Assembly (NCBI RefSeq): GCF_000063445.1
Contig: NC_009464.1
Span: 3,100,001 to 3,164,000, forward strand
Direction: 5' to 3'
From: Methanocella arvoryzae MRE50
GTDB taxonomy: Archaea; Halobacteriota; Methanocellia; Methanocellales; Methanocellaceae
Length of the DNA: 64,000 nt
Each line of letters begins with the position of its first letter. Positions within the stretch are counted from its first letter, which is position 1. Position numbers and translations under genes: made by a program. Of this stretch, positions 1,713 to 37,813 are shown piece by piece. A model generated the notes under the pieces. That model searched no databases. It had not been told where the DNA came from and was given only the letters and a program-made list of their open reading frames with translations.

Positions 1713-3497
1713 ATGGCCACCGCCACTGAAATCAGGAAGGACCTCAGGACGCCGATCGTGTGCGTCATGGGACACGTTGACCACGGAAAGACTTCGCTGC
1801 TGGACCGGATCCGGGGCACGGCCGTGGTAGATAAGGAGGCGGGTGCCATCACCCAGCATATTGGTGCGACCGAGGTGCCGCTGCAGACCATACAGACTCT
1901 CTGTAAGGGTATGATCGGCGGCAACATCGTCGTCCCCGGCTTACTTTTCATCGATACCCCCGGGCATCACGCGTTTACTAATCTGCGGAGCAGAGGCGGC
2001 GCACTGGCCGACCTTGCGGTGCTCGTGGTGGACATCAACGAAGGCTTCCAGCCCCAGACTGTAGAAGCCATAAAAATCTTAAAGCAGTTTAAGACTCCGT
2101 TCGTGATCGCCGCCAACAAGATCGACAGGATCCACGGGTGGACTGCGAAGAATAATTCGCCATTCTTGCAGACTTTCAACTCCCAGCCAGACCACGTCAA
2201 GGGTATAATCGAAACCAAGACCTACGAGCTCGTGGGCCGGATGTCCGATCTGGGCTTCAGTTCGGACCGTTATGACCGCATACGGGACTTCACCCGGAAC
2301 ATCGGCATCATCCCCATCAGCGCAAGGACTGGCGAAGGCATCCCCGATCTGCTCATGATCCTGATCGGCCTCGCCCAGCGGTTCCTCGAAGAGTCGCTGA
2401 AGTTCCAGGTTACCGGGCCCGGCGTCGGCACGATCCTGGAGGTCAAAGAAGAGCGCGGACTTGGCTATACTATAGATACGATCATCTATGACGGCGAGAT
2501 CAGAGTCGGCGACACCATCGTTATCGGCGGCAGAGAAAAGCCGTACTCGACCAAGGTAAGGGCTCTTTTGAAGCCCAAGCCCAACCGGGAGATCCGGGTT
2601 GAAGAGCGGTTCGACCGGGTCAATAAGGTGACCGCAGCATCCGGTGTCAAGATCCTGGCCCCGGAACTCGAGAAGGCTATGGCCGGCTCTCAGGTACGCG
2701 TAACGAAAGAGAGCAACGTCGAGGATATAATCAAAGAGATCGAGCAGGAGATGGAGCAGGCAAAGATTGTGACCGACGAAGTCGGCGTCATGGTCAAAGC
2801 TGACACCCTCGGCAGCCTCGAAGCCATCGTTAACGAGCTGCGGGAAGCTAAGATCCCCATCGGCAGAGCTGACGTAGGCGACATCTCCAAGAGAGACATC
2901 ATCAACGCCGAGACGGTCAACGATCCGATGTACCGGGTCATGCTCGGCTTTAACGTGACCATACTCCCGGATGCGAACGACTACCTGCAGACCACAGACA
3001 TCAAGATCTTCAACAGCGACGTTATCTATCATCTTATCGACGACTTCCGCAAGTGGGAGACCGAGCAGCGGGCTCTCGCGGAAAAGAAGAAGTTCGCCGA
3101 GATCGTCAGGCCGGGCAAGGTCAAGTACCTGCCTAACTGCACTTTCAGACAGAGCAAGCCTGCAGTCATCGGCCTCCAGATCATGGGCGGCATGCTCAAG
3201 CCAGGCGTCACACTGATCAAGCCCGACGGCTCCAAGATCGGCGTTGTAAGGCAGATCCAGGAGCGCAACGAGAACATCAGTATCGCCACCGTGGGCAAGG
3301 AAGTCGCAGTATCCATCGACGGCCCGACCGCCGGAAGACAGATCAACGAAGGCGAAATCTACTTCGTCGACGTGCCCGAAGGCCACAGCAAGGTGCTCGA
3401 GTTCCAGCTGAAAGATACGATCAAGCAGGATGAACTTGAGACGCTGATGGAGTTCCTGGCTATAAAACGAAAGGATAACCCGTTCTGGGGTAGATAA
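1713..3497 (+). CDS. infB: translation initiation factor aIF5B (IF2-like GTPase)
   Basis: GTPase that promotes subunit joining and initiator tRNA placement. The 594 residues lack the long N-terminal extension of bacterial IF2, as expected for archaea. The G1 motif GHVDHGKT is at residues 20-27, G3 is DTPGHHAF, G4 is NKID, and the four-domain arrangement continues to the end. It is the last gene of the operon and is followed by a hairpin at 3511-3536. No intein is seen. Confidence 0.96.
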   Translation: MATATEIRKDLRTPIVCVMGHVDHGKTSLLDRIRGTAVVDKEAGAITQHIGATEVPLQTIQTLCKGMIGGNIVVPGLLFIDTPGHHAFTNLRSRGGALADLAVLVVDINEGFQPQTVEAIKILKQFKTPFVIAANKIDRIHGWTAKNNSPFLQTFNSQPDHVKGIIETKTYELVGRMSDLGFSSDRYDRIRDFTRNIGIIPISARTGEGIPDLLMILIGLAQRFLEESLKFQVTGPGVGTILEVKEERGLGYTIDTIIYDGEIRVGDTIVIGGREKPYSTKVRALLKPKPNREIRVEERFDRVNKVTAASGVKILAPELEKAMAGSQVRVTKESNVEDIIKEIEQEMEQAKIVTDEVGVMVKADTLGSLEAIVNELREAKIPIGRADVGDISKRDIINAETVNDPMYRVMLGFNVTILPDANDYLQTTDIKIFNSDVIYHLIDDFRKWETEQRALAEKKKFAEIVRPGKVKYLPNCTFRQSKPAVIGLQIMGGMLKPGVTLIKPDGSKIGVVRQIQERNENISIATVGKEVAVSIDGPTAGRQINEGEIYFVDVPEGHSKVLEFQLKDTIKQDELETLMEFLAIKRKDNPFWGR

Positions 3498-23362: not shown

Positions 23363-26344
23363 ATGCCGTTCAGGATTGAGATCGCCCTTGGGCCCGGTTA
23401 CCGGGATGCTGCGGGGGAAAGCGTGAAAAACGCCATCAAGAGTAACTTAGACATCGCCGTGGATGATATTCGCACCATCAAGGTCTTCACCATCAATGCA
23501 AACCTGACTGATGCGGAGAAAGAAGCGGTTGCCTCAGGCCCGTTCTCCGATGCAGTGGCCCAGCGATACTCTGTCGATCGCCCGCTGGCGAGCGACTTCG
23601 ACTGGCTGGTCGAGGTCGGCTATCTGCCCGGTGTCACGGATAACGAGGGCAAGACCGGCAGGGAAGCCATCGAAGACCGGCTCGGCCGGAAGCTCGGCGC
23701 AGACGAATCGGTTCACACTTCCACACAGTACCTGATCAACGGCAACCTCACCCGCGCCCAGGTGGAGACTATCTGCAGGCAACTGCTGGGTAACGAGCTG
23801 ATCGAGCGCTTCGACGTGATCGACGGGCGCTCCTGGGATGCGCAGAAAGGCATTCCCGCGAGGGTCCCTCTTGTCAAGGACACTCACCAGCCTCGCGTGG
23901 CGGAGATCGATCTCGATGTCTCCGACGATGAGCTCATAGCTATCAGCCGGAAAGGGACGCTCGCCCTGACTCTGGAAGAGATGAAAGCGATCCGGGACTA
24001 CTTCAAGCAGCCGGAAGTACTCGCCGAGCGCAGGAACCTCGGGCTGGGCCCGAGGCCGACCGACGTCGAGCTCGAGACGCTGGCCCAGACCTGGAGCGAG
24101 CACTGCAAGCACAAGATCTTCAACGCGACCATCGACTACGTGGAGAACGGCAAGCATACGGAGATCAAGAGCCTTTTCAAGTCCTGCATCCGTAAGTCCA
24201 CCGAAGAGATCTCAAAAGAAAAGGGCTGGCTCGTATCAGTATTTAAAGATAATGCGGGCATCATCAAATTCACGGACGACTATAATGTCGCTTTCAAGGT
24301 AGAGACCCATAACAGCCCCTCTGCGCTGGACCCTTACGGCGGTGCTATCACCGGCATCGTGGGCTGCGACAGGGACTCGGCAGGCACCGGCAAGGGCGCC
24401 AAACTCATCGCTCACACCGACGTGCTGTGCTTCGCCTCTCCCTACTACAAAGGCCGCCTCCCGCCCAGGATTTTCCATCCCAGGAGGATTATGGAAGGTG
24501 TGGTCAGAGGCATCAAGGACGGGGGCAACAAGTGCGGCGTCCCCACCATTAACGGCGCCATCCTGTTCGACGACCGGTATGGCGGCAAGCCGCTGGTATA
24601 CTGCGGTTCCCTCGGCCTTATGCCGGCCACCATCAACGGCGAGCCGTCTGAAGACAAGTACGTCAAGCCCGGCACTTTTATCGTCATGGCCGGCGGGCGG
24701 ATAGGTAAGGATGGCATCCACGGCGCCACCTTCTCTTCCGAAGAGCTACACGAAGGCTCCCCGGCGACCGCAGTCCAGATCGGCGATCCCATCACCCAGA
24801 AGAAGATGCTGGACATGCTGCTCGAAGCCCGGGATCAGGGCCTGTACACCTGCATCACCGACAACGGCGCAGGCGGGCTGTCCTCCTCGGTCGGAGAGAC
24901 AGCCCAGTTCTCCGGCGGGTGCGAGATCTACCTGGAGAAGGCGCCGCTCAAATACCACGGCTTAGACCCATGGGAGATTCTGCTCTCCGAAGCCCAGGAG
25001 CGCATGACGCTCGCAGTGCCACCCGAGAAGCTCGACGCTTTCATGTCCCTGGCGAAGCGCAGGGGTGTCGAGGCTACCGTGGTCGGCAAGTACACTGACA
25101 CTGGCAAGTTCCATGTGTTCTACGATGGCAGGACTGTCGCGTCTATCGACATGGATTTCCTGCATGACGGCCTGCCCGAAATGAGGCTGCAGGCAGAGTG
25201 GAAGCCTGTCCAGCGCACCGAGCCGGAGTTGCCGACAGAGGGCCTGACCATGTACCTTCAGGACCTGATGTCCGATCTGAACATCGCCAGCAAGGAATGG
25301 GTCATCCGACAGTACGACCACGAAGTGCAGGGAGGCTCAGTCATCAAGCCGCTCACCGGCAAGGATAACGATGGCCCGGGAGACGCCGGCGTCATCCGTC
25401 CCCTCTTAGACCGCATGGCCGGCATCGCCGTGTCCAACGGCATCAACCCGTACTACGGCGACATCGATACCTATCACATGACTGCCTGCGCCATCGACGA
25501 GGCGATCAGGAACATCATCGCCGTCGGCGGCAGCCTCAGACAGATCGCCCTGCTGGATAACTTCTGCTGGTGCGATCCGATCTACGACCCGGAGAAGACG
25601 CCGGATGGCAAGTATAAGCTGGCTCAGCTTGTGAGGGCAAATCAGGCGCTGTACGACTACACTACGGCATTTGGCACTCCATGTATCTCGGGTAAGGACT
25701 CCATGAAGAACGACTACAAGTTGAAAGGCGAAGACGGGAAAGAATACAAGATATCTATCCCGCCGACAGTGCTCTTCTCTGCAGTGGGAGTCGTGCCTGA
25801 CGTGAGAAAGTGCGTCACGATGGACGCCAAGATGGCGGGAGATCTGGTCTACGCCGTGGGCATGACGAAGGACGAGCTCGGCGGGTCACGGTTCTACAAT
25901 TTGCTCGGGCATACAGGGAACAACGTGCCTAAAGTGGATGCTGCAATGGCGAAGAAGATTTACGACGCCATGTCGGGAGCTATCGATGCCGGCCTTGTAG
26001 CATCATGCCACGACTGCTCCGATGGCGGCCTGGCAGTCGCTCTGGCAGAAACAGCCTTCTCCGGCGGCTTCGGCATGGAGATCGACCTGAACCGGGTGCC
26101 GGCAGAGCGGCTCTTCCGGGATGCCCAGGTGCTCTTCTCCGAGTCGGCGAGCAGGTTCGTGGTCACGGTCGCCCCGGACAAAGCGAAGGCGTTCGAGCAG
26201 GCCATGGAAGGCGTGCCCTGTGCCCTCATCGGCAGTGTAAGGGAAGACGACAGGTTCCTGGTGAACGGCCTGAACGGCACAAGGGTGATCGACACCGTGA
26301 TCGGAGCACTCAAAGAGTCGTGGCAGTACCCGCTGAGGTGGTAA
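23363..26344 (+). CDS. purL: phosphoribosylformylglycinamidine synthase, long PurL with PurS-like N-terminus
   Basis: ATP-dependent amidation of FGAR to FGAM in purine synthesis. The product has 993 residues: an N-terminal PurS-like part, about 1-190, with two repeats (IEIALGPGYRDAAG, VEVGYLPGVTDNEG), then the linker and the two AIRS-like halves. Family motifs include TWSEHCKHKIFNATIDY, KVETHNSPSALDPYGGA and CHDCSDGGLAVALAE. The glutaminase is not fused but is encoded by the next gene two bases later. Most archaea have separate PurS and a PurL of roughly 720 residues, so this form is unusual. Confidence 0.93.
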   Translation: MPFRIEIALGPGYRDAAGESVKNAIKSNLDIAVDDIRTIKVFTINANLTDAEKEAVASGPFSDAVAQRYSVDRPLASDFDWLVEVGYLPGVTDNEGKTGREAIEDRLGRKLGADESVHTSTQYLINGNLTRAQVETICRQLLGNELIERFDVIDGRSWDAQKGIPARVPLVKDTHQPRVAEIDLDVSDDELIAISRKGTLALTLEEMKAIRDYFKQPEVLAERRNLGLGPRPTDVELETLAQTWSEHCKHKIFNATIDYVENGKHTEIKSLFKSCIRKSTEEISKEKGWLVSVFKDNAGIIKFTDDYNVAFKVETHNSPSALDPYGGAITGIVGCDRDSAGTGKGAKLIAHTDVLCFASPYYKGRLPPRIFHPRRIMEGVVRGIKDGGNKCGVPTINGAILFDDRYGGKPLVYCGSLGLMPATINGEPSEDKYVKPGTFIVMAGGRIGKDGIHGATFSSEELHEGSPATAVQIGDPITQKKMLDMLLEARDQGLYTCITDNGAGGLSSSVGETAQFSGGCEIYLEKAPLKYHGLDPWEILLSEAQERMTLAVPPEKLDAFMSLAKRRGVEATVVGKYTDTGKFHVFYDGRTVASIDMDFLHDGLPEMRLQAEWKPVQRTEPELPTEGLTMYLQDLMSDLNIASKEWVIRQYDHEVQGGSVIKPLTGKDNDGPGDAGVIRPLLDRMAGIAVSNGINPYYGDIDTYHMTACAIDEAIRNIIAVGGSLRQIALLDNFCWCDPIYDPEKTPDGKYKLAQLVRANQALYDYTTAFGTPCISGKDSMKNDYKLKGEDGKEYKISIPPTVLFSAVGVVPDVRKCVTMDAKMAGDLVYAVGMTKDELGGSRFYNLLGHTGNNVPKVDAAMAKKIYDAMSGAIDAGLVASCHDCSDGGLAVALAETAFSGGFGMEIDLNRVPAERLFRDAQVLFSESASRFVVTVAPDKAKAFEQAMEGVPCALIGSVREDDRFLVNGLNGTRVIDTVIGALKESWQYPLRW

Positions 26345-26346
26345 CA

Positions 26347-27186
26347 ATGGCAGGAAAGGTAAAATCGCTGGTTCTCACTGGCTACGGTATCAACAGCGAG
26401 GTAGAGACGGCATACGCTAACACCCTTGCAGGAGCAGACGCTAAGATCGTCCACATCAACGACGTCATCGACGGGCTGGTGAAGGTAGACGACTACCACC
26501 TGCTCAACTTCCCGGGAGGCTTCTCCTATGGCGATGACCTCGGCAGCGGAAAAGCGTTCGCGAACAAAGTACTGTACGCGAAGACCCCGACAGGGCCGAT
26601 GATCGATCACATTCAAAAGTTCATCGACGACGGCAAGCTGATCATCGGCATCTGCAACGGCTTCCAGATCCTGGTGAAGATGGGCCTGCTGCCCGCTTTC
26701 GATAAGAATTACACCGGGCAGACCGCAACAGTCTTCTACAACGACAAAGGCTTCAGAGACCAGTGGGTCCGCCTGAAGGTGAACACCGAGTCGCAGTGCG
26801 TCTTTACTCGTGGTATCAGCCGCATCGACATGCCCGTGAGGCACGGCGAGGGCAAGTTCATCCCCGGCAGCCAGGAGGTGCTGGCCCGCCTGTGGAAGAA
26901 CGGCCACGTGGCTCTACAGTATGCCGACTCTGCTTATCAGCCCACCCAGCAGTTCCCCGATAACCCGAACGGCTCGGTCGACGCCATCGCGGGAATCTGT
27001 GACGAGACCGGCAGGGTCTTCGGCCTGATGCCTCACCCCGAAGCGTTCAATCACATTACTAATCACCCGCAGTATACCCGTCTCCGGGAACAGGCTTCCC
27101 GTAAAGGCATAGCGCTGAAAGAAGAAGGCGACGGTATCAAGGTGTGGCGGAACGCGGTCGAGTACATCGAAGCGAACCTGCTCTAA
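26347..27186 (+). CDS. purQ: FGAM synthase glutaminase subunit PurQ
   Basis: Class I glutamine amidotransferase of 279 residues that supplies ammonia to PurL. The nucleophile cysteine is in GICNGFQILVKMG, the oxyanion-side motif is FPGGFSYGDDLGSGKAF, and the catalytic His/Glu pair is in GLMPHPEAFNH. The start ATG lies two bases past the purL stop; the frame extends upstream only as overlap. The stop overlaps by three bases that of the convergent kinase gene. Confidence 0.95.
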   Translation: MAGKVKSLVLTGYGINSEVETAYANTLAGADAKIVHINDVIDGLVKVDDYHLLNFPGGFSYGDDLGSGKAFANKVLYAKTPTGPMIDHIQKFIDDGKLIIGICNGFQILVKMGLLPAFDKNYTGQTATVFYNDKGFRDQWVRLKVNTESQCVFTRGISRIDMPVRHGEGKFIPGSQEVLARLWKNGHVALQYADSAYQPTQQFPDNPNGSVDAIAGICDETGRVFGLMPHPEAFNHITNHPQYTRLREQASRKGIALKEEGDGIKVWRNAVEYIEANLL

Positions 27187-29057
27187 GGCTGCTGGCGCGG
27201 GCCAGGCGGACTCCCGTCTGACCGGCCAGCCGCCGCCTTTTCCGCTGCCGGCATCCATATTAAGATCTTTGTTCCCTTCGTGTGGTCTCCCGGTACCCGG
27301 TTCGTGATCTCGACTTTTCCGCCGAACCGCTCGACGAGCATTTTTACGATGTAGAGGCCCAGGCCTTTGCCGTGCCCTGTTTTGGTGCCCCGTTCCAGCC
27401 TGCGGAAGAGCCTGGGCTTCAATTCGTCAGGAATACCCTGGCCGTTATCTGCTATAGCTACTTCATAGCTTATTTTCCCGTCATCCATAATCTCCCGGAC
27501 ATCGATGTCAATCGTGACTTCTGTCCCCGAGTACTTGATCGAGTTGCCAATGATATTACTGAAGACTTCCTTCAGCAGCGGAGTACCTCTGGTGATCATC
27601 CCCGGCTTCGGGCGATAGTTGATGATCACGGTCTTGCCCTGCGGCCGGGGAGATTCCGCGATGGATCGCCTGATCATGTCGTCGATGTCTACGTTATCCA
27701 GATGCAGTTCTCCCGATGTGAATTCCTGGATCTTCCTCACGTTTTCTATGATACCTGCGCTCCCTTTGATCGAGGCGATCGCTCTCCTGATCAGGGTTTG
27801 ATCATCCGGGGAGAGTCTATTATTTAGCTCAACCAGCTCGAGACTGGTCAGCGCTGTCTGGTTGAGGTTATTGATGTCGTGCCCGAGAATGTCGACGTAC
27901 AGCTCTGCCCTGTTCTTTTCTTCCTCCGCCTGGTCTCTGGCAGATACAATCTTTTGCTGGCTTTCCCGGATATCGCCTGCCATCTGGTCGAAGGACCGTG
28001 CCAGATCGCCTACCTCATCCTGCCTGTCCAGGGGCAGGTCCTTCCGGTAGTCGCCATACGGCATATTGCGGGTGGCACGAGTCATGTGCAGCAAGGGATT
28101 AACGATGTTGGCGCTACTCACCCAGGCTATGGCAATCACGATGAGTACCATGATCGAGGTGAAGACCGCAAACCACCTGGTAGCCTGGTTAATCGGCTCG
28201 TAGGCTATGTCCGAGGGCAACGACACGATCACTCCCCATCCATATCTGGGAATCGGTGAATACGAGGCAAGCTTGTGGATGTTTTCCTCGTAGCTGAACT
28301 GCTCGACGCTCCCCTCTTTATTCATTAAAACCTGCGGAACTCCTGCATAGCCGGACATGTTCTGCATGACGTCCATATACGACCGGTTGGTGTGGATCAT
28401 CACGTTGCCTGTCCGGTTTACCAGGTAAATGTACCGGCTGCCCGTGATGTTGGGGTTGAGGATATAGTTGGAGTAATAATAAAGGTCAAGCGATCCGACC
28501 ATCACTCCGATACTGGTCTCATTTCGCATGATCGGGGCGCTTACAAAAACCGTGGGCTGCCCTCCGATCGGACTGACAACTGCATCGCTGACGTATCCGC
28601 TTTTATTCGCCAGGACCGAGCTTACCCACGGCTTATCCGAGTCGTCTCTCCCGGCGACGTCGTAGGGGTACGATATGATCACAGTGCCTGAGGCGTCGGT
28701 CACGTAAACGTTATAGAATATGCCTGCGTCCTGGACTTGCCGGACTTCGTCAGTCAAGAAGGCTCTGTCACCGGTCTCGACAGCTTCGGAAATCGACGAC
28801 CTGGAAGCATGGCTTTCGATGAAGAGCAAAGCAGAGTCCACGAAGTGGCCGGAAAACGAAGCTACGGTCTTCGCCTGATCCAGGGTATCTTCCCAGATAT
28901 TTTGCCGTATTATGTCCCTGTAATAAATCGTGCTGATGGTGCCTACCAGGATGATTGGTACTACCATTATAACGATCATTATGATGATGGCCTGAGTCCT
29001 GATAGACCTGTAACCCATGATCAACGTTTTAGCCGCGAGCCTGATATTCGTTGACAC
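27183..29057 (-). CDS. membrane sensor histidine kinase, double-Cache type
   Basis: Product of 624 residues. An N-terminal helix (IIIMIVIMVVPIILVGTIS) is followed by a dCache extracellular domain (about 40-285, with YVTDASGTVIISYP and GWGVIVSLPSDIAYE), a second helix, and a HAMP domain (NPLLHMTRATRNMPYGDYR). The dimerisation helix carries the likely phosphoacceptor in DILGHDINNLNQ. The HATPase domain has SNIIGNSIKYSG and IADNGQGIPDE, with GKGLGLYIVK. The phosphoacceptor region differs from the HisKA_2 pair in this window and fits a methanogen subfamily. No regulator gene adjoins. Confidence 0.9.
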   Translation of the reverse strand: MSTNIRLAAKTLIMGYRSIRTQAIIIMIVIMVVPIILVGTISTIYYRDIIRQNIWEDTLDQAKTVASFSGHFVDSALLFIESHASRSSISEAVETGDRAFLTDEVRQVQDAGIFYNVYVTDASGTVIISYPYDVAGRDDSDKPWVSSVLANKSGYVSDAVVSPIGGQPTVFVSAPIMRNETSIGVMVGSLDLYYYSNYILNPNITGSRYIYLVNRTGNVMIHTNRSYMDVMQNMSGYAGVPQVLMNKEGSVEQFSYEENIHKLASYSPIPRYGWGVIVSLPSDIAYEPINQATRWFAVFTSIMVLIVIAIAWVSSANIVNPLLHMTRATRNMPYGDYRKDLPLDRQDEVGDLARSFDQMAGDIRESQQKIVSARDQAEEEKNRAELYVDILGHDINNLNQTALTSLELVELNNRLSPDDQTLIRRAIASIKGSAGIIENVRKIQEFTSGELHLDNVDIDDMIRRSIAESPRPQGKTVIINYRPKPGMITRGTPLLKEVFSNIIGNSIKYSGTEVTIDIDVREIMDDGKISYEVAIADNGQGIPDELKPRLFRRLERGTKTGHGKGLGLYIVKMLVERFGGKVEITNRVPGDHTKGTKILIWMPAAEKAAAGRSDGSPPGPRQQP

Positions 29058-29143
29058 CGGTTATTGCAACTCATGAACGATGCTGTCTTAATAGCTATTG
29101 AGTAGTTTTATAGTGTTAGAGTGTAATCCCTATACGATTTACT

Positions 29144-29506
29144 ATGGTAGAGGATATCATAATCGTCAGCACTCCCTACGTGCCCGGCTATAAGATCACG
29201 AAAACTTATGGCTTCACCTGGGGACTGATTGTCAGAAGCAGAGGCATCGGCGGCAACATTATCGCAAGTCTCAGAACGATTTTCGGCGGGGAGATCCACG
29301 AATACACCGAACTGCTTAACCAGTCCAGGCAGTACGCGCTGGACCGCATGAAACAGCACGCCCGGGAGATGGGCGCAAACGCAGTCGTCAGCGTCGGCTT
29401 CGACTCATCCGATATCGGCCAGAACATGTCTGAAGTCCTGGCCTTCGGAACTGCGGTCACGGTAGAGCCGGAAACTGCTGCCTCAAGCCCGGTAAGGCTT
29501 GGATAA
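29144..29506 (+). CDS. YbjQ/UPF0145 family protein
   Basis: Product of 120 residues of the YbjQ family (heavy-metal-binding-like domain, pentameric in solved members). Family hallmarks are GLIVRSRGIGGNI, the segment EYTELLNQSRQYALDRM, and GANAVVSVGFDSSDIG. Biochemical role unknown. TTTTATAG about 30 bases before the ATG suggests a near-leaderless transcript. A pyrimidine-rich run (TTCTTTCTTTTCTTATTC, 29557-29574) after the gene may be the terminator. Confidence 0.85.
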   Translation: MVEDIIIVSTPYVPGYKITKTYGFTWGLIVRSRGIGGNIIASLRTIFGGEIHEYTELLNQSRQYALDRMKQHAREMGANAVVSVGFDSSDIGQNMSEVLAFGTAVTVEPETAASSPVRLG

Positions 29507-29573
29507 CCAGCCCCGGAGCGCATGATCGGCCCGGCAGACAGTATTCTGGCCAGGCCTTCTTTCTTTTCTTATT

Positions 29574-30845
29574 CTACATGAACAGGCCCGGGAAAATGCT
29601 CGTCGCAATCATGGCCAGCGTCAGCAGGGTCATGGCTATAGTAAGTCCCCAGGAAATATAGTTGTAGATTTTGCCATTGGTGTAGCTGCCCATCAGCTTC
29701 TTATTGTTGATCAGGAGCAGCATGAACACCAGGATCACGGGGAGCAGGATGCCGTTGAGCACCTGGGACATCACCATGATCTCGATGAGGGGGATGCCCG
29801 GTATGAGAATGATCGCCGCCCCGATGACGATGAGCATCGTATACAATGTGTAGAACTGCGGGGCATCCTTGAACTTCTTATCGATGCCAGAGTCCCAGCC
29901 CATGCCTTCGCAGATCGTGTACGCTGTGGCGAGAGGCAGGATGGAGGCGGCGAGGATCGACGCGTTGAAGAGGCCGAAGGCAAACAGCCAGCTGCTGTAC
30001 TGCCCGGCCAGCGGTACCAGGGCCAGCGCGGCTTCCGCAGCGGATTCGACGGATATGCCGCTGGGGTATATTGTCGCTGCACAGGTGACGATGATGAAGA
30101 ACGCGACGATGTCGGTGACCAGGCAGCCGATGATGACGTCCAGCTTCGTGTACCTGTACTCCGATATCTTGATGCCTTTATCCACTATGGAAGACTGGAT
30201 GTAAAACTGCATCCAGGGGGCGATCGTAGCGCCTACCAGACCGATTACCATAGCGAGATACCCGGGGTTGAAGCTTACTGTGGGCACTACCGTGCTCGCA
30301 GCCACGTACCCCCAGTCCGGGTTGGCCAGCAGGCCGGAAATGGCATAGGTGAGGTAGAACGCGCTGGCTATGAGGAAGATCTTTTCTACCATACTATATG
30401 TGCCCTTGACCACCAGTATCCAGACCAGCGCTGCAGCAATGGGTACTGAGATGTACTTGGTGACGTGGAAGACCTCCATGCTTGCTGCCACACCTGCAAA
30501 CTCGGCCATGGTGTTGCCCAGGTTGGCCACGAGCAGCACCAGTGTCAGCAGTACCGTCAGTTTCAGGCCGAAGTTCTCCCGTATCAGGTCGGAGAGCCCT
30601 TTACCGGTGACTACTCCCATACGGGCCGACATCTCCTGTACGATGACCAGCACTATGGCGATAGGTATGAGCGTCCAGAGCAGACTGTAGCCGAAGTGGG
30701 CGCCCGCCAGCGTATACGTGGTGATCCCGCCCGCATCGTTGTCCACGCTGGCGGTGATGATGCCCGGCCCGATCACCGCGAGAAACAGCGCTATCTGCTT
30801 GAAGTTGATCCCGGAGAACAGGGCCGTCTTCCTTTCCACGCTCAT
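29574..30845 (-). CDS. Nramp-family divalent metal transporter with altered metal site
   Basis: Product of 423 residues with 11 predicted membrane helices and the Nramp fold. The first-helix motif DPGN reads D-A-G-G (D37 in SVDNDAGGI), and the sixth-helix MPHN region reads APWMQFYIQSS, so the usual metal-ligand methionine is alanine (A209). In characterised Nramps that methionine disfavours Mg2+ and Ca2+, so this carrier may move Mg2+ as well as or instead of Mn2+. It is the last gene of the Lrp-MgtE_N/CBS-Nramp operon, joined by an ATGA overlap. Confidence 0.9.
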   Translation of the reverse strand: MSVERKTALFSGINFKQIALFLAVIGPGIITASVDNDAGGITTYTLAGAHFGYSLLWTLIPIAIVLVIVQEMSARMGVVTGKGLSDLIRENFGLKLTVLLTLVLLVANLGNTMAEFAGVAASMEVFHVTKYISVPIAAALVWILVVKGTYSMVEKIFLIASAFYLTYAISGLLANPDWGYVAASTVVPTVSFNPGYLAMVIGLVGATIAPWMQFYIQSSIVDKGIKISEYRYTKLDVIIGCLVTDIVAFFIIVTCAATIYPSGISVESAAEAALALVPLAGQYSSWLFAFGLFNASILAASILPLATAYTICEGMGWDSGIDKKFKDAPQFYTLYTMLIVIGAAIILIPGIPLIEIMVMSQVLNGILLPVILVFMLLLINNKKLMGSYTNGKIYNYISWGLTIAMTLLTLAMIATSIFPGLFM

Positions 30846-32209
30846 GGTCCATGGCCCCTGTGCACCTTGCGAATCATCCGGTAGTTCTGCGGCAGCTGCT
30901 TTCTCAGATCCTCGGGCAGCACGTCCTCGAGGGCGTCATCGAAGGTCACGACGCCCAGCATAACACCCTCATTATCCGTGACCGGGATGGCCAGCAGATC
31001 GTACTTGGAAAGCAGGTTGGCGACCTCATCTCCCGTGGTATCCGGCAGCACTCGCAGGATCTCCGACTTCATGACTTCCGAGACACACTGCTCGGGCTTC
31101 GACAGCAGCAGATCTCTCAGAGAGAGGACTCCGGTCAGGCGCTCTTTGTCGTCTAGCACGTAGACGTAGTAGATCATGTCAACTTCGCTGCCCAGTTCCC
31201 GCAGCCTGTCGAAAGCGTCAGCCACCCTGCTCTTGATCGGGATGCTGATGAACTCGTTGGTCATCAGGCCACCTGCAGATCGGTGGCTGTACCGCAGCAG
31301 TTCCTTGACATCGCTGGCTTCTTCCTCATCCATCAGCTTGAGCACTTCGCAGGCCTTTTCCCGGGGCATCATGTGAATGACATCCGCGGCGTCGTCTGGG
31401 TTCATGTTCTCCAGAATGTCCGCCACGTCATCGCTGTCCATGTGCTTGACGATCTTGGCCTGGACGTCGGGCTCGACTTCTTCCAGCGTCTCCGCTGCCT
31501 TCTCGTCTCCCAGCGACTCGAGGATGAGCAACTGCTCTTTCCGGTCCAGCTCTTCGATAATGTCGGCAATGTCTGCGGGGTGCAGATCGCCGATCTTCTT
31601 CCGTGGGATCTTCAGGTGGATGCGCCGCAGCCCGGGGTCGAGCGGATCGATGTACGACCAGGCGATGAGGTTGTCCGGCATCCCTGTCAGCAGCCTCCCG
31701 GAAACCCAGCCTAAGCCAAGCCGGCGCAGGATGCCTTTGAAGCCGACGTCCACCCCGACCACGCAGAGCTTATCCTTGACTCTGGTCAGGAGCACGTCGT
31801 TTACCCTCACCACTTTCAGCCCGTCGATATCCACGATCTGCTTGTCGAGGATCGTTTCCACTATCAGCATCTCGTGCTCCGACAGCTTTCCCGGCGGTAT
31901 TTCTTCCCGGGGGATTTTGAGCCTGAAGGAGCCGTCGAAGGAGGCCACAGAAGCCATAGGTACCGTTATACTGTCTCTCAGGATGTTCGACATATAGACG
32001 ATACGCGATACTTCCAGCAGCGACTCGCCGGGGGTGATGGCAAAGTCCTTGATCCGGCCAAGTACCCGGCCTTCGCTATCTATCACCTTCTGCCCCTGGA
32101 ACGTGCTAAAATACGCTACGTTCTCGATGCTCTGCCCTTCCGGGCCCCTGAAGGCCGCTGAGGCGGGCAGGCTGCTGATAATGCTGGAAACGCTCTTCGA
32201 CAGGCTCAT
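30842..32209 (-). CDS. cytosolic PRC-barrel/MgtE_N/CBS protein, no membrane domain
   Basis: Product of 455 residues. Order: two PRC-barrel-like segments (about 37-100, QGQKVIDSEGRVLGRIKDF; about 117-170, LDKQIVDIDGLKVV), MgtE_N helical repeats (about 215-315, HPADIADIIEELDR, NPDDAADVIHMMP), and a CBS pair (about 320-440, MTNEFISIPIKSRVADAF). In MgtE channels the N and CBS domains sense Mg2+ and gate the pore; here the pore is absent. The start at 32209 is chosen because the frame upstream overlaps the regulator gene. Likely sensor or regulator of the downstream Nramp. Confidence 0.87.
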   Translation of the reverse strand: MSLSKSVSSIISSLPASAAFRGPEGQSIENVAYFSTFQGQKVIDSEGRVLGRIKDFAITPGESLLEVSRIVYMSNILRDSITVPMASVASFDGSFRLKIPREEIPPGKLSEHEMLIVETILDKQIVDIDGLKVVRVNDVLLTRVKDKLCVVGVDVGFKGILRRLGLGWVSGRLLTGMPDNLIAWSYIDPLDPGLRRIHLKIPRKKIGDLHPADIADIIEELDRKEQLLILESLGDEKAAETLEEVEPDVQAKIVKHMDSDDVADILENMNPDDAADVIHMMPREKACEVLKLMDEEEASDVKELLRYSHRSAGGLMTNEFISIPIKSRVADAFDRLRELGSEVDMIYYVYVLDDKERLTGVLSLRDLLLSKPEQCVSEVMKSEILRVLPDTTGDEVANLLSKYDLLAIPVTDNEGVMLGVVTFDDALEDVLPEDLRKQLPQNYRMIRKVHRGHGP

Positions 32210-32238
32210 CTTAACCGCTCCTGTAGTTGTGGGACCTC

Positions 32239-32697
32239 CTAAATCGGAGGCGCATCTTCCTTGACCCGCTCGACGACGACGATCTCCATCAGGTCTTCGA
32301 TGCCGCTGATGGCCCTGATCTGGTCGTTTATGAACCGGTTCAGCTCCTCGAGGCTTTTCGCCCACACCTTTATGTACAGGTCGTACTCCCCCAGCACGCT
32401 GTAGACCTCCGACACTTCCGGCAGCGCGGACAGCGCCGTCTTAGCCTCGTCGTGCATCTCGGTGGCTGTCTGCACCAGTATGATCGCTGTGACCGTGTAG
32501 CCGGTCGCGGCGGGATTGGCGAGGACAGTAAACCTGTCGATTACGCCCCGCTCCCTCATCCGCTTCAGCCTGTGCTGGATAGTAGCGTCAGAGATGCCGG
32601 TTTTCCGGGACATCTCCAGGTAGCTCATGCGGGCGTTTTCCCGCAGAAGCCGGAGTATGGTGGAGTCGACCTCATCTATCTCTGGACTATCGTTCAT
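32239..32697 (-). CDS. Lrp/AsnC family transcriptional regulator
   Basis: Product of 152 residues from the ATG at 32697. The N-terminal HTH (DEVDSTILRLLRENARMSYLEMSRKTGISDATIQHRL) is followed by an AsnC ligand-binding domain (EVSEVYSVLGEYDLYIKVWAK). It starts the metal operon, with 29 bases to the MgtE_N gene. The frame is open 26 codons upstream, but that part covers the promoter and palindrome. It may regulate its own operon. Confidence 0.9.
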   Translation of the reverse strand: MNDSPEIDEVDSTILRLLRENARMSYLEMSRKTGISDATIQHRLKRMRERGVIDRFTVLANPAATGYTVTAIILVQTATEMHDEAKTALSALPEVSEVYSVLGEYDLYIKVWAKSLEELNRFINDQIRAISGIEDLMEIVVVERVKEDAPPI

Positions 32698-32726
32698 GAG
32701 TAGTGTAGTACTCCTATGACTCAATG

Positions 32727-32756
32727 TTGGTAAATTACCAATAAAAGTATAAAAAA
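32727..32756 (-). promoter_or_regulatory. operator palindrome and TATA region of the metal operon
   Basis: TTGGTAAATTACCAA (32727-32741) is an inverted repeat with 7-bp arms and one central base. Immediately next to it, on the minus strand, is the AT-rich CAAATTTTTTATACTTTTAT, which includes a TATA-like box. The palindrome falls downstream of the TATA box, across the expected transcript start and before the ATG at 32697. This placement fits a repressor site. Confidence 0.6.
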
Positions 32757-32826
32757 TTTGTGTTTTTACCATCATTTCGTAGTAATAACAAGAAATATAC
32801 CATAACTGGATAAGTATCCTCCAGGT

Positions 32827-35457
32827 CTACCGGCCTCGGAGATTAACGTGTCTCGTAACCCATTTCCTGATCTCTAAAACTACAACTGCTATCGGCGCTA
32901 TGAGGAGCACGACCGCCCAGTCTCCTGTCGAGAGGGGGACTGTGTAGAAGATCGCCTGCAGGGGTGGCAGGTATATCATCGCCAGGAGCAGCAGGATGGA
33001 TATTCCTACCGCTGCCAGAAGATGCCTGTTCGAGAACAGTCCTCTGATAACCGATCTGGTCTCTGACCTGCAGTTGAACGCATTGCAGATATGCAGGGCG
33101 ACCAGCGTTGTGAAAGCCATGGTGCGGGCGTATTCGATACCCTGGCCGAGGGCTGTGTAGAACACGCTTAGCGAGCAGATGCTCATGATCAGCCCGATCA
33201 AGGCCATGTCGAAGATTGTAATCCTGTTGATAATTGGCTCTCCGGTCCTTCTCGGGGGTCTGCGCATGATGTCGCGCTCCGGGGCGTCTACACTCAGAGC
33301 GAGTGCCGGCAGTCCGTCGGTGATCAGGTTGAGCCAGAGGATCTGGGTGGCCAGCAGAGGAAGGGGCAGGCCCAGCAACAGCCCGAACATGATGGTCGCT
33401 ACCTCGCCCACGTTGCTGGTGAACAGGTACTTGACAAATTTGCGGATGTTATCGTAGATCACCCGTCCGCCATAGATCGCTTCTACAATCGTGGAAAAGT
33501 TATCGTCCTGCAGGACGATGTCGGAAGCTTCCTTGGCCACTTCCGTGCCTGTGGCGCCCATCGCTATGCCCACGTCTGCCAGTTTCAGCGCCGGGGAGTC
33601 GTTCACGCCGTCGCCGGTTACCGCCACGACCTTGCCATTCGACTGCAGTGCTCTTACTACCCGGATCTTCTGTTCCGGCACCACTCTTGCGTAGACAGCT
33701 ACCCGGTCCGCCTTCGCCTTCAGGACATCCTCGGGAGTCAGATCCAGCTCGGCACCCGTCATCACCTCATCGCCCGGGTGAAAAAGGTCCAGCTCTTTAG
33801 CGACTGCGACTGCCGTAAGCTCCTGATCGCCCGTTATCATCACGATGTCTATGCCGGCATCCTTGCACGTCTGGATAGCTTCTCTGACGTTGTCCCGGAT
33901 CGGGTCTTCGAATCCTGTCAGGCCAGCGAACGTCAGATCGTGAGTCAGCGACCACACATCGCTAATATCCTCCTGCGACAGGTCTCGGTAAGCGAAGGCG
34001 AGCACCCTCATGCCACGTGATGATAGGCGATCGTTCGCATATCTCACTCTCTCCCGGTCTTCCTCTCTCAAGGTGCTCTCCCTGCCCGAGGAGAGCTTTT
34101 TTGTGCACTTCTCCAGCACCGCCAGCGGCGCTCCCTTCACGTACAGCCTCGGGGCCTCATGGCTTCCGGCTACGACTATCATCATCTTGATCGACGGCCG
34201 GAAGGGTATGCCTGAAAGACGGGGATATGCCCGATCGTAGCCGGCCTTGTCGAAGCCGAGCCGGTTCAGGAAATCGTACAGGGCTATGTCTAACTGGTTG
34301 CCATGATAGCGGGTAACCTGGTTCCATTTTTCTTCTATAGCATCGTTGCATACGCCGGCCACTTCAAACATCATACGAAGGTCCGGGTCATCCGTATGCT
34401 CTATGGAATACGCCTCACGGTCTCTGTCGAAAGTGTATACTGTCCTCACCCGTGACTCGTTCTTCGTCAGGGTGCCCGTTTTATCCGTGCAGATGACATC
34501 CGTGCTGCCCAGCGCTTCCACGATGGGCAGCGATCGTACGATAGCTTTATGGTTGGCCATGCGGCGTGCCCCCGTGGCGAGAGCGATGGTTATTGTGGCT
34601 GCCAGGCCTTCGGGAACTGTCGCAACTGCCAGGCTGACTGCAGCGAGGAGCATTTCGAGAGGCGGCTGTGCCCTGATGATTCCGGTGAGGAAGACAAAGG
34701 CAGAAACAATGACGACACTGATGCCGAATATTCTTCCCAGCCGGTCCAGCGCTCTCTCGAGAGGCATTTTGGGCTTCTTCGCCCCTCCCGCCATCGCCGA
34801 GATCCTGCCTATCTCCGTCTGCGCTCCGGTGGCTACCACTACAGCGGCACACTCCCCGTCCAGCACATTCGTGCCCATGTAGAGCATGTTAGCCCGGTCT
34901 GTCACCGGGGTGTTCTCCGGCAGGACCATCTCCTGTTTACTGCGGGGCACCGATTCCCCGGTCAGCATCGACTCATCGACCGACAGGCCGTCGGATGCGA
35001 TGATCCGGGCATCTGCCGGCAGCCGATCACCTGCCTTGATCATGATCACGTCGCCGGGCACGAGGTCAGCGGTGTCCACGTCACCGACTTTACCATCCCG
35101 CATTGCGTGCGCTTCCGACCTGTACAGCCGCTTCAGCGCATTGATCGATCGCCGGGCTTGTAGCGCCTGAAAAACTCCTATCGTAGTATTTAAGAGGACG
35201 ATAATGACAATGACGACGGCATCGTGGAAATTACCGACGGCCAGCGCTATGATGCTGGCGATCACCGGGATAATGACAATGTAGTTACTGAACTGGGCGG
35301 CTATAATGGCTGGCAGCCCGGGGCCGGAATCGACTGATATCTCGTTCTTACCGTAGCGCAGCAGTCTCTCTGCAGCTTCCCGGGAAGTCAGCCCTGTCTG
35401 CGAAGTGTTCATGCTGGTAAGCACTTCGTCTAACGGACGATCATGCCACCCGCTCAC
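32827..35457 (-). CDS. P2-type cation-transporting ATPase (Ca2+ ATPase-like)
   Basis: Complete P-type ATPase of 876 residues. The actuator motif is MLTGESVPRSK, M4 has VATVPEGLAATITIAL, the phosphorylation site is ICTDKTGTLTKNES, and the hinge is VTGDGVNDSPALKLADVGIAMG. The C-terminal six helices include NLITDGLPALALSVDAPERDIM. The PEGL sequence and the M6 NxxTD element place it among P2A/P2-like pumps for Ca2+ or Mn2+, though specificity is inferred. The start is GTG, ten bases after the SWIM gene stop, so the two are co-transcribed. Confidence 0.92.
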   Translation of the reverse strand: MSGWHDRPLDEVLTSMNTSQTGLTSREAAERLLRYGKNEISVDSGPGLPAIIAAQFSNYIVIIPVIASIIALAVGNFHDAVVIVIIVLLNTTIGVFQALQARRSINALKRLYRSEAHAMRDGKVGDVDTADLVPGDVIMIKAGDRLPADARIIASDGLSVDESMLTGESVPRSKQEMVLPENTPVTDRANMLYMGTNVLDGECAAVVVATGAQTEIGRISAMAGGAKKPKMPLERALDRLGRIFGISVVIVSAFVFLTGIIRAQPPLEMLLAAVSLAVATVPEGLAATITIALATGARRMANHKAIVRSLPIVEALGSTDVICTDKTGTLTKNESRVRTVYTFDRDREAYSIEHTDDPDLRMMFEVAGVCNDAIEEKWNQVTRYHGNQLDIALYDFLNRLGFDKAGYDRAYPRLSGIPFRPSIKMMIVVAGSHEAPRLYVKGAPLAVLEKCTKKLSSGRESTLREEDRERVRYANDRLSSRGMRVLAFAYRDLSQEDISDVWSLTHDLTFAGLTGFEDPIRDNVREAIQTCKDAGIDIVMITGDQELTAVAVAKELDLFHPGDEVMTGAELDLTPEDVLKAKADRVAVYARVVPEQKIRVVRALQSNGKVVAVTGDGVNDSPALKLADVGIAMGATGTEVAKEASDIVLQDDNFSTIVEAIYGGRVIYDNIRKFVKYLFTSNVGEVATIMFGLLLGLPLPLLATQILWLNLITDGLPALALSVDAPERDIMRRPPRRTGEPIINRITIFDMALIGLIMSICSLSVFYTALGQGIEYARTMAFTTLVALHICNAFNCRSETRSVIRGLFSNRHLLAAVGISILLLLAMIYLPPLQAIFYTVPLSTGDWAVVLLIAPIAVVVLEIRKWVTRHVNLRGR

Positions 35458-35467
35458 AGGTGATCCC

Positions 35468-36475
35468 TCAGCGGAAAGCGTTTCTGCGAAGCTCGGACCT
35501 CAGGATGTTCAGCCTTCCAATGCGCTCGTCGATGTACTCGTGCTCCTCCGAGTACTTCGGGCTGGTGGATATGAAGCTGCGCTTAAAATCAGAGATCTTC
35601 AGCTCAACTGCGTCGATCATATACTTGTTCTGGCCCAGCCGCACCGGGTAATCAGCCAAAAACTTCAGAACGTCGCTTTCCAGCCCCCACTCTGCGTCCA
35701 TATACCAGTCCAGGGCTCTGGTCAGGTGAATCCGCAACTTCCCCTCGTCTTTAATCACGGAGAGCAGGCTGCCATACATGTCCATGGCCGCCCCGAAAAA
35801 GTTGGCCATCAGTGCGTCAGCATCGTCCAGGCGGGTATAGTTAGCGACGATCGCATCGATGACCGGCTCTATCAATGCAAGGGCTGTATCAGTTTTCTTC
35901 TCCCTCGCGAGGTCCGAGGCGTATTCCCGGAAAATGTCCAGCTTCTTCACGATCTCCCGGACGTTGAGGTAGTCTACGTACTCCTCGGAAAAGATGGCGG
36001 CGACTTCCCGGCGGGTGAAGTCCGTAAGTTCTCCGGCAGACGTCAGGCGAAGGTTGATCACGTACATGACGTCGGGATCATAACGGATCATGTCCATGAC
36101 GATCTCGACGATCTGGCTCTTGTCCAGCCGGCTCAGAATCTCCTCGCTCTCCCCGAGGTCCGCGAAGGCCGAAGGCCGCTTCACCCAGGCGTACAGCACT
36201 GCCGCAATGTGCTTACAGTACCCAAAAGCATATGGACAGGTACACGACGCCACGATATTATCGTCTCTGACGTCGATACTGGTGTGGTAATTCTCAGGCT
36301 GGGTGCCATGGCACTCTGCCATAATACTGCTTCTGTATACAAAAGGCCGCTGCAGGCGACCCTCCTCGAAATATTCGATGCCCCGCTCCAGTATTTTGGG
36401 GCTGAAGAGCTTACTAATGTCCTGCTCCGTCAGCTTTCGAAGATCTGTCGAGCCTGTGGCTCCGGCCTGCTGCAT
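35468..36475 (-). CDS. SWIM zinc-finger protein
   Basis: Product of 335 residues. The SWIM finger lies at about 80-110 as CTCPYAFGYCKHIAAVLYAW (CxC...CxH). Ahead of it, FSPKILERGIEYFEEGRL is the usual N-terminal strand region of SWIM proteins. The C-terminal two thirds are helical with no known domain. SWIM fingers bind DNA or protein. It precedes the P-type ATPase by ten bases in an apparent operon, whose logic is not clear. A related but longer protein is at 60348. Confidence 0.82.
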   Translation of the reverse strand: MQQAGATGSTDLRKLTEQDISKLFSPKILERGIEYFEEGRLQRPFVYRSSIMAECHGTQPENYHTSIDVRDDNIVASCTCPYAFGYCKHIAAVLYAWVKRPSAFADLGESEEILSRLDKSQIVEIVMDMIRYDPDVMYVINLRLTSAGELTDFTRREVAAIFSEEYVDYLNVREIVKKLDIFREYASDLAREKKTDTALALIEPVIDAIVANYTRLDDADALMANFFGAAMDMYGSLLSVIKDEGKLRIHLTRALDWYMDAEWGLESDVLKFLADYPVRLGQNKYMIDAVELKISDFKRSFISTSPKYSEEHEYIDERIGRLNILRSELRRNAFR

Positions 36476-36544
36476 GTATAATAATTTATTACCGCATAAA
36501 TATATTATTAAGCCCGGATAAGCGGCATTTGCGGTCGCCGGGGC

Positions 36545-36760
36545 TTACTTTGCCTTTCCATTAATGCAGTAATACATGTCCCTCAGCTTGTGCTGGGCAT
36601 AGACCGGACAGCCTGCAGGACATATGCAGCCTTCCATTACAATCTTCTTATCGCTCTTGCCTCTGGCACAGTACAGCTTTTTATCGTTGCCCGGAAAGCT
36701 GGGGCACCCGTTGCAGATACAGGCATTATAATTTTCGTCATTTTCTTGTGGCGTGGCCAT
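36545..36760 (-). CDS. Cys-rich DUF2769-type protein
   Basis: Product of 71 residues with eight or more cysteines, ordered as CICNGCPSFP, LYCARGKS, GCICPAGCPVY and MYYCINGK. This matches the DUF2769 pattern seen in methanogens, presumed to bind zinc or an iron-sulphur cluster. Role unknown. It lies between the SWIM gene and the radical SAM gene on the same strand, with gaps of about 55-70 bases. Confidence 0.8.
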   Translation of the reverse strand: MATPQENDENYNACICNGCPSFPGNDKKLYCARGKSDKKIVMEGCICPAGCPVYAQHKLRDMYYCINGKAK

Positions 36761-36814
36761 AAACAGTTATCTGGCTTACTTGTTTAAATAGAAGACCGCA
36801 AATAATAGCAAGCG

Positions 36815-37813
36815 CTATACCAGGTTGGTCAGCCCCGCCGCCTTTACTATTTCCGTCGCCCGGCGAATTTCCGACATGTTCAGCGGCCGGTTTATCTCCG
36901 GGTGGACAGCAGCCCTGTGCTCTGGATGGTACTGAAACATCAGGTTGAACCGCACGTCTTTGCCCAGATTCTCCGCGCACCACTCAACTATCGGCTTCGT
37001 GCAGCACTCGACGTGCCCGGGCAGCACCAGCTGCCTCACCAGCACCCGGGCCTGGCGCTTCGCCTCAAGGAAATTTCTGGTAGTGACCTTCCAGTAGTCC
37101 CTGATGCCAGAATACCGGTATGCGTGCTCATCGTTGCCGTACCGGAAGTCGGCCAGGTACAGATCCACCACGCCGTCCAGCAGCTTCATGGCTTCAGGGG
37201 TCATGTACATGTTAGAGTTCCAGATCACCGGCAGCTCCTCTGGCATGCACCTGACGATCTTCAGGACTGTGTGCAGGTGTGGTATGGGATCTCCGCCGAC
37301 GAAATTGACGTTAGCGCTGCCCTGTCCTCTGCGGGCTTCGATGACCCTGCACATCCGCAAAACGTCAAGAGGAGGACTTCTGGCCCGGGTGGCGATAGCC
37401 CAGTTCTGGCAGTAGGCACAGGTAAAGTTGCAGCCCTCGAAAAAGATGGTGTGCGAGGGTATCAGCTCGGGCTCTTCTCCCCTGTGCAGGAACTCGGATG
37501 AAATCCTGGATACAGCATCGGCTCCGCAGGCTCCGGCTTTCCGGAACCTGTCGCACCCGCACCGGCGCTCGCAGAAACAGCATGCCTTCAGCAGGCGTTC
37601 TGCCAGCTCGATCTTGACGTCGAGCAGCGAGGTATCCAGCCTGTCGCCTGCCGGTATCTTACCTTCCGCTCTGGACTGCCTGTACTCGGCCATAAGTTCG
37701 TCGTGCAACTTCCACAGGCCAGAGTCCGGGAGCAACAGGTAATCTGCATTTACTCTGATTAATTTTAGAAGGCTATGATTAGTTTGCCTCGAGCTACTTT
37801 TCAGATCTATCAT
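36815..37813 (-). CDS. radical SAM protein, PflA-like/PflX type
   Basis: Product of 332 residues. The N-terminal cysteine-rich segment (CCFCERRCGCDRF at about 81-93) is followed by the radical SAM motif CNFTCAYCQNW (Cx3Cx2C). The GGDPIPHLHTVLKI segment and ADFRYGNDEHAY follow. The layout matches archaeal proteins annotated as putative pyruvate formate-lyase activating enzymes, but there is no glycyl radical enzyme in this window. Substrate unknown. Confidence 0.85.
   Translation of the reverse strand: MIDLKSSSRQTNHSLLKLIRVNADYLLLPDSGLWKLHDELMAEYRQSRAEGKIPAGDRLDTSLLDVKIELAERLLKACCFCERRCGCDRFRKAGACGADAVSRISSEFLHRGEEPELIPSHTIFFEGCNFTCAYCQNWAIATRARSPPLDVLRMCRVIEARRGQGSANVNFVGGDPIPHLHTVLKIVRCMPEELPVIWNSNMYMTPEAMKLLDGVVDLYLADFRYGNDEHAYRYSGIRDYWKVTTRNFLEAKRQARVLVRQLVLPGHVECCTKPIVEWCAENLGKDVRFNLMFQYHPEHRAAVHPEINRPLNMSEIRRATEIVKAAGLTNLV

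Follow-up and report, generated by a model that had tools for sequence, protein, structure and literature searches.

Why would the cytosolic Mg2+-sensing part of the channel MgtE be encoded without its pore, directly beside a carrier of another fold? The question is raised by a 64,000-nucleotide stretch of the genome of the archaeon Methanocella arvoryzae MRE50 (NC_009464.1, positions 3,100,001 to 3,164,000; this whole stretch is hereafter the window), in which three genes on the minus strand likely form an operon in the order AsnC/Lrp-family regulator, pore-less PRC–MgtE_N–CBS protein (the sensor) and Nramp-related carrier. An earlier note, made from the sequence alone, had described a pore-less PRC/MgtE_N/CBS gene overlapping an Nramp gene by ATGA, with an Lrp regulator in front. 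Open reading frames, Pfam domains and the sequence bear out the overlapping pair, and Pfam assigns the regulator to the AsnC/Lrp family; the three genes are not chance frames, since they are conserved in relatives. We suggest that the carrier is, on balance, probably an NRMT-type importer that is feedback-gated by cytosolic Mg2+ through the separate sensor, because of the two-way pairing of the genes across genomes, their correlated divergence, the Mg2+-site acids retained in the sensor and the M-box, a Mg2+ riboswitch, at bacterial relatives.

Sensor and carrier genes are paired in archaea and bacteria

The pairing was surveyed in 294 genomes of the host's phylum, of which 28 have an Nramp match at an E-value of 1e-20 or better. 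Three of 33 carrier places had no locus and were dropped, leaving 30 Nramp loci read, and two of 34 MgtE_N places were left unread; L142, an unrelated protein below the cut-off, was dropped as well, and L032, with a sensor frame of only 249 amino acids (aa), was counted as pore-less. Neighbours were sought within ~1500 bases only, and the membrane spans of MgtE_N genes come from a crude hydropathy count. An NRMT-type pocket, defined as DNDAGG or DDDAAG in transmembrane helix 1 (TM1) together with G[T/A]TI[A/S]PWM in TM6, occurs at 18 of the 30 Nramp loci, and the sensor is adjacent at all 18; it was found within the distance searched at 0 of the 12 others. Approached from the other side, 18 of 18 pore-less MgtE_N loci have an Nramp as neighbour (the same 18 loci, the window's included), as against 0 of the 13 pore-bearing MgtE loci of the phylum that were read. 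At 7 of the 18 archaeal loci the order is reversed, with the sensor downstream of the carrier and adjacency kept.

Among 80 bacterial loci (the best 80 of the 577 relatives listed), a sensor is nearby in 69: upstream on the same strand in 64, downstream in 2, and downstream on the other strand in 3. Of the 11 loci without one, four offer <1500 bases of upstream sequence and another two <600 bases of downstream sequence. The arrangement singled out by the earlier note, a Mg2+-sensor half that lacks the pore and adjoins an Nramp-related carrier, is conserved well beyond this genome, with Mg2+-site residues present, and the survey of MgtE_N genes beside Nramps disposes of the objection raised there that the pair might not be conserved in relatives. 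Sensors and carriers have also diverged in parallel: their distances correlate at r 0.70 over 83 pairs, where none of 500 permutations exceeded 0.18, and at r 0.83 over 66 bacterial pairs, a correlation that shared organism history alone could produce. Frames of 845–904 aa that looked like fusions of the two genes were artefacts, the matches running across a stop.

Regulatory elements at the loci

A gene matching the Lrp type by BLAST is present at 9 of the 17 pore-less archaeal loci read (the window and eight others) and at 0 of the 80 bacterial loci, some of which are truncated. Thirteen of the 80 bacterial loci have an M-box upstream, 11 of these 13 together with a sensor, and no Mn2+ riboswitch family reached threshold in the riboswitch scan of bacterial loci. 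No riboswitch was found at window positions 26000–37000, and no M-box in the 13 archaeal loci scanned. At L039 and L043 (3.5–4 kb), NRMT genes lie behind an M-box, and a search of up to 4 kb to each side gave no sensor; here the riboswitch may replace protein feedback. Four bacterial loci, L036, L038, L075 and L095, show matches to PyrR-binding sites near 2440–2580 (-), immediately ahead of the sensor gene but on the other strand.

The sensor keeps Mg2+-site residues of MgtE and lacks its pore

By both Pfam and fold, the sensor has the MgtE_N domain and CBS pair of an MgtE channel. In contrast to the channel it has no pore: no MgtE pore family matched it, and the crude hydropathy count gave no hydrophobic span. 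The window PRC half was matched at 15 of the 18 archaeal pore-less sensor loci and at 0 of the 13 pore-bearing MgtE loci. Residues 198–433 align to MgtE of Thermus thermophilus (TtMgtE) with an E-value of 6.6e-41, and the best fold matches of the sensor model (predicted local distance difference test, pLDDT, 84.6) are MgtE cytosolic domains (Z 26.5, root-mean-square deviation [rmsd] 2.5, 238 residues aligned to the Mg2+-bound form).

All six tested acids of the TtMgtE sites Mg4–Mg7 are acidic in the sensor (Table 1; TtMgtE numbering takes the crystal chain to carry a 23-residue tag, and the six named residues then show the right letters). Mutating these sites in MgtE interferes with its Mg2+-dependent closing or with domain changes (PMC5882242). 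Over 87 sensors, the window's own included, the fraction of acids is 0.99 at D276, 0.87 at E240, 0.76 at D425, 0.71 at D272, 0.21 at D404 and 0.11 at D429, against a median of 0.66 over the 55 columns where the window sensor has an acid; D276 and G419 are the most conserved columns of sensor residues 200–433. By this measure, Mg6 and Mg7 are well kept, Mg4 is barely above background and Mg5 is mostly lost.

The carrier is NRMT-like, with an exceptional alanine in its pocket

The carrier matches PF01566 with 350.1 bits (cut-off 29.8; E 1.8e-104), which places it in the Nramp/SLC11 domain family. Its closest solved relative is the Nramp-related Mg2+ transporter EleNRMT (7qia; E 1.3e-120, 401 residues ungapped), the next solved Nramp following at 4.6e-26. 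The carrier model (pLDDT 89.4, predicted template modelling score [pTM] 0.88) superposes on EleNRMT (7qji) with Z 50.1 and rmsd 2.4 over 387 aligned residues, and on the best other Nramp, DraNramp, with Z 46.5, the LeuT-type fold being common to both. With a numbering offset of 18, D37, G40, E115, A206, A209 and Q361 correspond to EleNRMT Asp55, Gly58, Glu133, Thr224, Ala227 and Gln379. Canonical Mn/Fe Nramps (MntH) have DPGN in TM1 and MPH in TM6 (PMC10185341); the carrier has neither, showing DAGG and APW instead. The DAGG and APWM motifs of the earlier note stand, and the lost methionine is indeed an alanine, A209. NRMTs are described by the motif DxxG-TxxA/T (PMC8806188), with which D37-A-G-G40 agrees; in A206-T-I-A209, however, Ala replaces Thr. 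A DxxG-AxxA pocket makes the carrier NRMT-like by similarity and fold, yet with one defining residue changed. From sequence and model, the carrier is a putative inward NRMT-type metal carrier, and by analogy with EleNRMT it would import its ion without proton coupling. With EleNRMT and Ca_c0685 it shares DxxG in TM1, Ala for Met and APW in TM6, a Gln on TM10, and the adjoining MgtE-like gene seen at the loci here and at most NrmT loci of Shin 2014. It differs from them in the Ala at the Thr224 position, the archaeal host and the Lrp-type gene in front, and no M-box was found at the Methanocella locus.

The Ala at position 206, three residues before the lost Met, was overlooked in the earlier note and is exceptional. 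Thr occupies the corresponding position in 96 of 98 NRMT-type carriers (18 archaeal, the window's own included, and the 80 bacterial, gathered with patterns allowing both T and A), and Ala in two, the window carrier and L007 of the same family. When 392 genomes of the phylum were scanned for the codons of G-[T/A]-T-I-[A/S]-P-W-M, 23 sites turned up, spread over 22 genomes; two have Ala, and these lie in the same two genomes. The backward-read control had no site among the matches listed. Thr is kept in the same-genus relative L005, whose carrier is 80% identical, and in L006 of the same family. Asp245 was considered as a companion change to Ala206 and dropped, as it is present in 29 of the 98 carriers. 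Among four relatives, 6 of the 13 residues common only to the window and L007 fall at carrier positions 206–245 (a stretch of 40; scan P 0.0275 for one pair out of six tested, uncorrected), and nothing is built on this clustering. Gene conversion as a source of these shared residues was not supported, DNA identity not being raised there.

What this residue means for the cargo can be judged from published mutants. EleNRMT T224A showed no detectable Mg2+ transport and no inhibition by Mg2+, and kept Mn2+ transport with a Km at least 2-fold higher (PMC8806188). The earlier note had pointed to the lost methionine, which in studied Nramps selects against alkaline earth ions; in EcoDMT, however, swapping the methionine alone gave no Mg2+ transport (PMC8806188). 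Because A206 replaces Thr224, Mn2+ is a likelier cargo than Mg2+, and by analogy with the EleNRMT mutant the cargo has possibly shifted to Mn2+.

Alternatively, the same sensor-gated carrier might still import Mg2+, other pocket changes offsetting the loss of Thr224, and the sensor would then provide simple end-product feedback. This would fit the six acids kept in the sensor, the M-boxes at 13 of the 80 loci of Thr-type relatives, the Thr of the same-genus relative and the remainder of the pocket, which is as in EleNRMT (D37, G40, A209, Q361). It sits poorly with the T224A mutant (PMC8806188), and the genome already holds an MgtE with predicted spans and two CorA-family genes; we regard Mg2+ import as a serious possibility, though a doubtful one.

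Proposed mechanism and points against it

In the mechanism we propose, the sensor would be the MgtE cytosolic domain minus the pore, plus a PRC barrel. At high cytosolic Mg2+ its N and CBS domains would clamp together around Mg2+ ions at their interface, as they do in MgtE, and in this closed state the sensor would lock the carrier from its cytosolic face; a drop in Mg2+ would make the sensor release the carrier. Both the binding of the sensor to the carrier and the gating are predicted. The PRC barrel is the likely docking part, because it is found in most pore-less sensors and was undetected at the pore-bearing MgtE loci read. To judge from its position, the Lrp-type gene probably adds transcriptional control. 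In M. arvoryzae the cargo would more likely be Mn2+ than Mg2+, going by the published mutant.

Several points weigh against gating by such a sensor. In a published test, rescue of Mg2+ transport by the A. capsulatum carrier was no better with its sensor present, and the carriers of C. acetobutylicum function in the absence of a sensor (PMC4072509). No sensor was found in 7 of 76 bacterial loci (the four with short upstream sequence left out; two of the 7 have <600 bases downstream), nor any natural sensor–carrier fusion in the 87 loci with a sensor match. Since related loci do not count as independent observations (L009 is a near-copy of L010), the association is not to be read as a probability. 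Within the sensor, the Mg5 residues are acidic in only 21% and 11% of the 87 sensors, and the pTM of 0.56 leaves the domain arrangement uncertain. The plug-helix sites Mg2 and Mg3 of MgtE (E258, D259) fall outside the aligned part and so have no aligned counterpart, and the sensor tail is poorly conserved in relatives. The ATP site departs from that of MgtE, with Asn203 replaced by Lys381 and Phe227 by Leu405, while Tyr170, Arg187 and Asp188 are kept (contact roles from PMC5529423); since F227A abolishes ATP binding in MgtE (PMC5529423), ATP tuning of the sensor is doubtful.

The absence of fusions, and the lack of better rescue on co-expression in Shin 2014, would also suit a sensor that does not touch the carrier at all and is a co-expressed soluble metal chaperone, buffer or signalling protein, the chaperone role being an alternative that Shin 2014 offered (PMC4072509). 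The two-way pairing, the overlap or close spacing of the genes and their correlated divergence fit a physical partner better, and in MgtE the same domain is part of the gate; a free-standing protein of this kind is improbable in our view.

If the carrier is sensor-gated as we propose, the change from Thr to Ala may have turned a Mg2+ carrier into a Mn2+ carrier with the Mg2+ sensor kept, so that cytosolic Mg2+ would set Mn2+ import. We put such cross-metal control forward tentatively and think it rather unlikely. The A. capsulatum carrier gave full Mn2+ rescue, gave Mg2+ rescue only with low millimolar Mg2+, and behaved as a Mn2+ transporter (PMC4072509). Yet the Acidobacteriaceae relatives L103, L106 and L110 (relatives, not A. 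capsulatum's own carrier) have Thr, so the residue alone does not decide the cargo, which also counts against the main reading given above.

The sensor might also gate on Mn2+ instead of Mg2+, as end-product feedback on a Mn2+ carrier. Mn2+ can sit in all-oxygen sites, and Ala stands at the Thr224 position; on the other hand, free cytosolic Mg2+ is far above Mn2+, and the six tested acids of the window sensor are unchanged from MgtE. Shin 2014 suggested a possible response of the A. capsulatum fragment to Mn2+ (PMC4072509); gating by Mn2+ nevertheless appears improbable to us.

Layout of the locus and neighbouring genes

The features of the locus are collected in Table 1. The regulator end and the sensor start are 29 bp apart; the ATG at 32209 was chosen as the sensor start, the longest frame opening with GTG at 32365.

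Table 1. Features of the three-gene locus in window coordinates, and Mg2+-site residues of the sensor
Feature	Position	Strand	Details
AsnC/Lrp-family transcription regulator	32239..32775	-	178 aa; Pfam HTH_AsnC-type and AsnC_trans_reg; first operon gene
Pore-less sensor	30842..32209	-	455 aa; PRC 30-102, MgtE_N 209-308, CBS pair to ~430, C-terminal tail
ATGA shared by the carrier (ATG start) and the sensor (TGA stop)	30842..30845	-	from the sequence
Nramp-related, NRMT-like carrier, DxxG-AxxA pocket	29574..30845	-	423 aa; PF01566
Carrier TM1 motif D35-N-D37-A-G-G40	30726..30743	-	coordinates derived from codon positions
Carrier TM6 motif G205-A206-T-I-A209-P-W-M212	30210..30233	-	A206 = EleNRMT Thr224; A209 = Ala227 (canonical Met)
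Mg4 (TtMgtE D91, D247)			sensor D272, D425
Mg5 (TtMgtE D226, D250)			sensor D404, D429
Mg6 (TtMgtE D95)			sensor D276
Mg7 (TtMgtE E59)			sensor E240

The host genome, a single contig of 3,179,916 bases, has one Nramp match only. It also has, for Mg2+, a second MgtE_N gene with ~5 predicted membrane spans and the two CorA-family genes, and it encodes one ZnuA-type binding protein. Directly upstream of the Lrp gene, and in the same orientation, is a P-type ATPase gene closest to Ca2+ types (32827–35457, -), which possibly forms one divalent-cation neighbourhood with the operon. The host's other MgtE_N gene (G000:C1:1877000-1878357; L003, L148) lies within a few hundred bases of the ZnuA-type gene, and MgtE_N and ZnuA matches are likewise ~2 kb apart in genome G019. 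Among the bacterial records, L105, titled as a metagenome-assembled genome of Bifidobacterium breve, carries this operon, which otherwise turns up in very different phyla, and its title looks doubtful.

Relation to earlier work and significance

Shin 2014 had already reported that most NrmT genes adjoin a homologue of the MgtE cytoplasmic domain and had proposed a feedback or chaperone role for it (PMC4072509), so the pairing is not a new kind of system. Its fragment ACP2976, like the sensor, is a pore-less homologue of that domain directly upstream of a carrier; in the portion of that paper drawn on here, only MgtE homology is described for it, whereas the sensor studied here is archaeal, has a PRC barrel and keeps all six tested acids. 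Our additions are the archaeal branch, the finding that within the phylum sample the pairing is exclusive in both directions, the PRC barrel of the pore-less proteins, the Mg2+ sites they conserve and a natural T224A-type pocket. Among the papers listed by literature searches, judged by titles and abstract openings, we recognised none beyond Shin 2014 that treats a link between Nramp and CBS or MgtE_N.

What the MgtE-like fragment does next to NRMT carriers was still a question in 2014, and we saw no later paper settling it among those listed. The pairing, the retained Mg2+ sites and the PRC module together give a testable model, in which the sensor of a channel would serve, in trans, a carrier with a different fold. 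Two carriers of the same genus, 80% identical, differ naturally in having Thr or Ala and so offer a ready test of the residue that may set Mg2+ versus Mn2+ selectivity.

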